A DNA stretch of 32,178 nucleotides from a virus. Below are positions 31,981 through 32,178 of the stretch, piece after piece. A program made the position numbers and the translations under genes. The notes beneath the pieces were generated by a model. The model searched no databases, had not been told where the DNA came from, and saw only the letters and a list, made by a program, of their open reading frames with translations. The first letter of the stretch is position 1. The number at the start of each line of letters is the position of its first letter. The stretch spans positions 1 through 32,178 of IMG/VR virus record IMGVR_UViG_3300035698_023289; one strand, written 5' to 3'.

Positions 31981-32178
31981 AGGTCAACTACCCATCCCTG
32001 AAGGGACGGGCTTGAAATAAAGCCCCATGTTGACCAGCTTAAGCCTTCTAGTAGAAGGCTACGTTAGAAGAGAATATATAGGCACCTTGGAATGCTTCTC
32101 CAGTTCCAGGCTCTGCGGTAAGTAGTTAAACAGGCATAAGGAGTTTAGACCAGTGCTATTTACTAAAAACCTTTTCAT
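31981..32178 (+). mobile_element. 5' part of an iscB-less HEARO (omega-RNA) / IS605-like element
   Basis: The element starts with a long closing stem, GGTCAAC (31982-31988) with GTTGACC (32029-32035). This encloses CCCATCCC/GGGACGGG (31991-32010), which overlaps an alternative GGGCTT/AAGCCC hairpin. A perfect hairpin AGCCTTCT/AGAAGGCT (32042-32060) follows, then TAAGTAG (32119-32125) with CTATTTA (32156-32162) enclosing TTAAAC/GTTTAG (32126-32148). The element continues at 1-179 on the circular map. The opening sequence style is what I know as the HEARO start. No transposase or nuclease gene is associated. Confidence 0.7.
31981..32178 (+). ncRNA. HEARO / omega-RNA scaffold, 5' portion
   Basis: The helices listed for the mobile element belong to an RNA transcribed in the same direction as the upstream genes, so read-through from the 31766-31978 gene could produce it. 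In known systems the scaffold binds IscB and the preceding ~16 nt are the guide. Continues at 1-110. Confidence 0.65.
32147..32178. repeat. Terminal direct repeat, right copy
   Basis: Identical to 1-32; see the left copy. When the sequence is treated as a circle, one copy should be removed. Confidence 0.9.

Follow-up and report, generated by a model that had tools for sequence, protein, structure and literature searches.

The locus studied here raises the question of what a guide-RNA-like structure without an adjoining nuclease gene represents in a phage genome. The window, as the whole analysed stretch of 32,178 nucleotides is called, was read in an initial annotation as carrying an orphan HEARO (omega-RNA) element that lacks iscB, and a covariance search of the window with Rfam supports that reading. 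Positions 31983-32178 (+) match HEARO (RF02033) at 117.5 bits (E 6.5e-24), above the gathering score of 83 for this family. The annotation had specified beforehand that the lack of a meaningful score, or homology to another class of element such as an intron, would speak against it. The score is meaningful and no Rfam family besides HEARO reaches threshold in the window, which rules out a group I/II intron or other RNA class.

The match covers model positions 1-188 of 211 and is cut at the 3′ window end. Window bases 1-32 are identical to 32147-32178, and this 32-nt terminal repeat closes the record to a 32146-bp circle. Beyond the circular junction come the rest of the HEARO scaffold, then two small hairpins, an AT-rich linker and an IS200/IS605-type hairpin. 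The joined sequence can be aligned over its whole length with 12 other IscB-less elements. The element and its surroundings comprise the following features:

31967-31982, + strand: left flank with the predicted 16-nt guide GGTGACATTTGAAGAG, directly 5′ of the HEARO scaffold; the guide role is predicted from published IscB/IsrB biology
31983-32178, + strand: first part of the omega-RNA (HEARO) scaffold (RF02033, 117.5 bits); the terminal repeat of 1-32 lies at 32147-32178
1-54, + strand: last part of the omega-RNA scaffold, past the junction (1-32 equals 32147-32178), placed by end-to-end alignment with other elements
55-122, + strand: short hairpins and AT-rich linker, at the place of iscB in autonomous copies, by comparison with IscB-bearing copies
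123-179, + strand: right end with the IS200/IS605-type hairpin, read from the sequence (stem 128-134/167-173, inner hairpin 141-160, AGAGG in front at 123-127); layout common to other orphans and IscB-bearing copies
180-184, + strand: right flank ATGAA, presumed target-adjacent motif or transposase target (ATGA in 16/17 orphan copies; empty site of the related phage G031; IsrB motif NTGA, PMC9581776)
185-274, + strand: small ORF of 29 aa (MNYEGDSNYDEMTYEVDSYDRDHDNDWGF), a putative gene read from the sequence, starting 5 nt into the right flank
31766-31978, + strand: upstream ORF of 70 aa, from translation, with its stop 4 nt before the element

The element thus spans 31983-32146 plus 1-179 (343 nt), from the first base of GTCAAC (31983) to the base directly before ATGAA (180). 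These boundaries follow from the comparison of two near-identical short copies, L149 and L168, in the Chlamydiota genome G163. The annotation had proposed about 345 nt (31981-32146 plus 1-179); the junction-spanning layout stands and the start is refined to 31983. The closing stem that it described is found as GTCAAC/GTTGAC, pairing 31983-31988 with 32029-32034, the nested hairpins are present, and the IS605-like terminal hairpin lies at the right end as proposed. Since the element spans artificial contig ends, an assembly artefact or host contamination at a contig end comes to mind. This is scarcely credible: the circle closes at the terminal repeat, within the scaffold, joining the ends yields a complete element, and a relative with a 62% identical terminase has its own copy inside its contig.

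The record is listed as viral, and its matches to terminase, portal and major head proteins make the phage identity of the window clear; recombination genes (RusA, YqaJ, ERF) are also present. Neither IscB (NF040563) nor a Y1 transposase (PF01797) has a match anywhere in the record. Scans of IMG/VR returned no exact copies of the 5′ scaffold, and no relatives were found of the 153-aa ORF neighbouring the element. The terminase gives no firm host assignment: its relatives in Chlamydiota are only 36-39% identical, compared with 53-69% in other viral contigs. The window also encodes two paralogous small membrane proteins (7958-8224 and 30938-31162; ~52% identical, M..IIxAMVGSVIxLIAVVIALFLW.R.EARAD), homologues of which recur in the relatives L020, L036, L060 and L075. 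At 386-439, two tandem 27-nt units (AGTTGACGCAAAATAATGTCAATATTT; 81% identical) precede a pair of small genes on the + strand and are possibly an operator or iterons. Just downstream of the portal gene, at 19316-19606, there is a repetitive small ORF rich in Lys, Ser, Tyr and Met (MAYKSGKDMAYKSGKGMGYKSDKKMSYKS...), overlapped by another frame.

The window element belongs to a known RNA family and has a non-autonomous form met repeatedly in phages and in Chlamydiota. Beyond what the initial annotation had claimed, it is one of a recurrent family rather than a lone case. Pattern scans identified 22 IMG/VR contigs with a HEARO core; 19 of these hold a scorable HEARO (E<=0.001), 16 above the Rfam cut-off. 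No IscB over the curated cut-off (NF040563) occurs in ten of the 19, two of the ten being the same phage. The format of omega-RNA plus right end with no iscB recurs in about ten further viral contigs, including one from a relative of the window phage. That relative, G031, emerged from a terminase scan that gave 80 relatives; its own IscB-less HEARO scores 144.9 bits and adjoins a different gene, and HEARO is absent from the other 79. In addition, IscB matches the region ~367947-368951 of G009 (L090/L122), a 451,925-bp jumbo viral contig, inside a 647-codon frame adjoined by a weak partial HEARO match only (25.9 bits).

A genome scan for the same HEARO subtype yielded a Chlamydiae MAG that carries it together with iscB, and HEARO is present in 21 of 234 Chlamydiota genomes. 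Full iscB elements with the same ends, for which the annotation had proposed a search, do exist: same-subtype IscB elements with near-identical right ends occur in Chlamydiota genomes. At least ten Chlamydiota loci (L134, L149, L151, L152, L154, L159, L162, L163, L168 and L170) have no iscB within 1.3 kb or more downstream and are counted as IscB-less on this basis; L196 is an eleventh. A second HEARO subfamily in Chlamydiota (L134, L163, L188, L192, L198, L199 and L204) has a different right end (GGCAATTCATCCCTTTCC...) and lies upstream of, for example, rpsR- and rpoA-like genes, apparently before rather than after the Shine–Dalgarno sequence.

The two short copies in G163 are nearly the same in element sequence, with identity running from (G/A)TCAACTACCC to GTCAAATTG. 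Their left flanks differ and their right flanks read ATGAAAATAGG and ATGAATACATT. Two near-identical copies with different flanks fix both boundaries and point to movement as the short form, implying transposition in trans by a TnpA. No IscB or Y1 is detectable in G163 beside these two recent short copies, in an assembly that is possibly incomplete.

Several observations bear on how the short elements arose. One genome, G139, holds both an IscB-bearing copy of 1688 nt (L197) and an IscB-less copy of 355 nt (L196), the omega-RNAs of which are 90% identical and the right ends of which differ at 1 of the last 57 bases. Partial iscB remnants, comprising the first 29-42 codons, persist in L155, L160, L161, L188 and L204. 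Furthermore, the right end of the phage orphan L106 resembles the iscB 3′ end in contig 59 of the Chlamydiae genome G104 almost base for base. From the G139 pair, the partial copies and the L106 match, the short elements are best read as internal-deletion derivatives of IscB elements. Correspondingly, the subterminal right-end hairpin is common to short and full-length copies (L106 and G104 contig 59; L196 and L197), and the window has the same layout. For the window copy, a deletion origin would follow from family membership, its own full-length parent not having been found.

Compensatory changes preserve the RNA structure across 13 aligned IscB-less elements, among them the joined window sequence. 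The alignment supports 55 pairs in nine helices, with 96.6% of cells paired compared with 81.7% in shuffles; this structure was partly derived from the same sequences. Double changes occur at 34 of the 55 pairs (18.6 in shuffles), and covariation reaches 0.468, compared with 0.177 in shuffles, none of 500 shuffles being as high. When partners were slid by 1-3 columns as a control, pairing fell to 33-37%. Some of the compensatory changes may predate the loss of iscB.

This conservation bears on whether the elements are dead relics, that is, decayed insertion-sequence copies kept by drift, with an unused RNA. A phage without IscB or TnpA is what such a reading would expect, and certain Chlamydiota copies, in which iscB is broken, are clearly in decay. 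Against it, the window scaffold keeps all nine helices of the heavily paired structure, the ends are intact, and the near-identical short copies at different G163 sites indicate that short forms still move. Small phage genomes, moreover, tend toward loss of useless DNA. A relic therefore appears improbable.

Beyond the initial annotation, the family has a defined insertion place, 5′ of ATGAA and mostly between a Shine–Dalgarno sequence and a start codon. The G031 element adjoins a gene that has a homologue at 16030-16473 in the window, and relatives lacking the insertion show the empty site, which places the insertion exactly 5′ of ATGAA (...GGAGATAGTTA/ATGAAA, the slash marking the junction) with no target duplication. 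Joining the G031 flanks (...TATGGAGATAGTTA and ATGAAAAAACAC) restores the TAATG stop-start overlap and the Shine–Dalgarno spacing of L052, L039, L076 and others. Among 17 IscB-less copies, the right flank is ATGA in 16 and ATGG in one. An ORF of at least 40 aa starts at the flank on the same strand in 16 of the 17 (background, 28% of ATGA sites across these loci), and a Shine–Dalgarno-like 4-mer ends the left flank, 3-11 nt before the junction, in 13 (background, 11%). For these counts, the element boundaries were placed by eye from a subfamily comparison, and the copies are not independent. The window copy fits the start-codon rule weakly: the ATG at 180 reads M-K-stop, the likely start is a second ATG, at 185, and the element is preceded by a weak GAAGAG.

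HEARO elements were reportedly described by Weinberg in 2009 as inserting at ATGA/GTGA; if so, the ATGA motif itself is not new. IsrB enzymes require NTGA, NTG or NTGG beside their target, and the ATGA right flank fits the NTGA form of this target-adjacent motif (PMC9581776). With ATGA(A) directly after guide-matching DNA, an uninserted site would have what an RNA-guided enzyme needs for recognition. With up to 3 mismatches allowed, no target of the window guide turned up, either in the window or in the remaining viral loci examined. An 18-mer scan for guide plus ATGAA did not find the window empty site; its seven matches lack homologous context and were set aside as chance. Phage locus L006 contains a near match to the G031 guide (14/16, ATGAAA), which was likewise rejected, the site not being homologous.

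IscB-bearing copies show similar placement, nine of ten lying ahead of an ORF start. Seven copies (L186, L187, L189, L191, L193, L194 and L201) have an iscB frame that terminates at the TGA within the flanking ATGA. The iscB genes of L187, L189, L191, L193, L194 and L201 have no stop of their own, and the same ATGA also starts the next gene, which, judged by eye, is presumably carB-like or DAHP-synthase-like, for example.

A domesticated cis-regulator, in which a 5′ leader RNA controls the downstream gene alone or with a bound, non-cutting IscB, would also account for same-strand positions directly before an ORF start (16 of 17 orphans) and behind a Shine–Dalgarno sequence (13 of 17), and for targets that, by eye from translations, we take to include gpsA-, rpsR-, rpoA- and carB-like genes. 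The like placement of IscB-bearing copies argues that target choice and selection against damage are enough to explain this pattern. Sites and genes also vary among copies, and the window downstream ORF has only 29 aa. Dedicated regulation seems highly improbable.

The sequence of the right end suggests how the insertions might be tolerated. In L106, L125, L149, L168, L162 and L196, it consists of (A)GGAG, a 7-bp stem strand, an inner hairpin, the second stem strand, 7 nt and ATG. If the hairpin is skipped, the Shine–Dalgarno spacing is 6 nt in those six copies, 5 in L159 and 10 in L104 and L152. A linear Shine–Dalgarno sequence lies inside the element, 6-8 nt before the ATG, in L107, L108, L110, L151 and L170. 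In the window, AGAGG precedes the same kind of stem, but the minimum-free-energy fold differs. It is hypothesised that the right end gives the downstream gene a replacement Shine–Dalgarno sequence, with the hairpin bridging the spacing, which would explain tolerated insertion before gpsA-, rpsR-, rpoA- and carB-like genes.

It is quite probable, in our view, that the window element is non-autonomous and of IS200/IS605 type, that an internal deletion removed its iscB, that TnpA moves it in trans and that its guide RNA is usable in trans. An IscB/HEARO transposon would have lost iscB while retaining the whole omega-RNA and both ends. TnpA from the host or a co-resident element could then excise the short element as single-stranded DNA and would insert it directly 5′ of ATGA(A). 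Transcription of the omega-RNA might come from phage genes on the same strand, and the guide carried by the RNA would be the 16 nt that adjoin the element on its left. Loaded in trans into an IscB or IsrB, it may direct cutting of uninserted phage genomes, where the guide sequence is followed by ATGA, and so favour inserted copies. The chances that an IscB does use the omega-RNA in trans seem to us roughly even.

A bolder proposal is that the short elements are RNA-only phage homing elements, which rely on the host for TnpA and IscB, dock at start codons, supply a replacement Shine–Dalgarno sequence and, by means of the omega-RNA guide, destroy the genomes of uninserted co-infecting phages. 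Docking between Shine–Dalgarno sequence and start codon would then follow from the target motif ATGA containing the start codon. We regard this proposal as rather doubtful.

On the preferred reading of a trans-mobilised deletion derivative, guide RNAs from the family of the Cas9 ancestor move about with no nuclease of their own, both on phages and on chromosomes. A few shared bases serve as target motif, as start codon and, in several IscB-bearing copies, also as the stop codon of iscB. It is now testable whether the RNA alone can home by exploiting a resident nuclease, and by what means insertions before important genes are tolerated. What seems to be new is the occurrence in phages, the series of deletions and the docking at start codons.

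The window element shares with the HEARO/IscB omega-RNA (RF02033) its scaffold fold and sequence, at 117.5 bits, and the 5′ guide position. Orphan or standalone HEARO/omega-RNA copies, likewise without an adjacent nuclease gene, have reportedly been noted in bacterial genomes by Weinberg in 2009 and Altae-Tran in 2021. The elements described here differ in residing in phage genomes, in their complete right end and mapped insertion point, and in a likely internal-deletion origin from paired copies in one genome. The ATGA(A) flank of the window equals the NTGA motif of the IsrB system (PMC9581776); unlike IscB/IsrB systems, the element and its phage lack iscB and isrB. PATEs, which are end-only derivatives of IS200/IS605 (PMC7290912, PMC3119063), are similarly short, keep both ends, lack a transposase and are presumably moved in trans, whereas the window element retains a complete, structurally conserved guide RNA of ~220 nt. 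Finally, the experimentally demonstrated gene drive of IS200/IS605 in plasmids, with TnpB acting in cis (PMC11870625), follows the logic proposed here of cutting copies without the insertion, but the window element carries the RNA part only.
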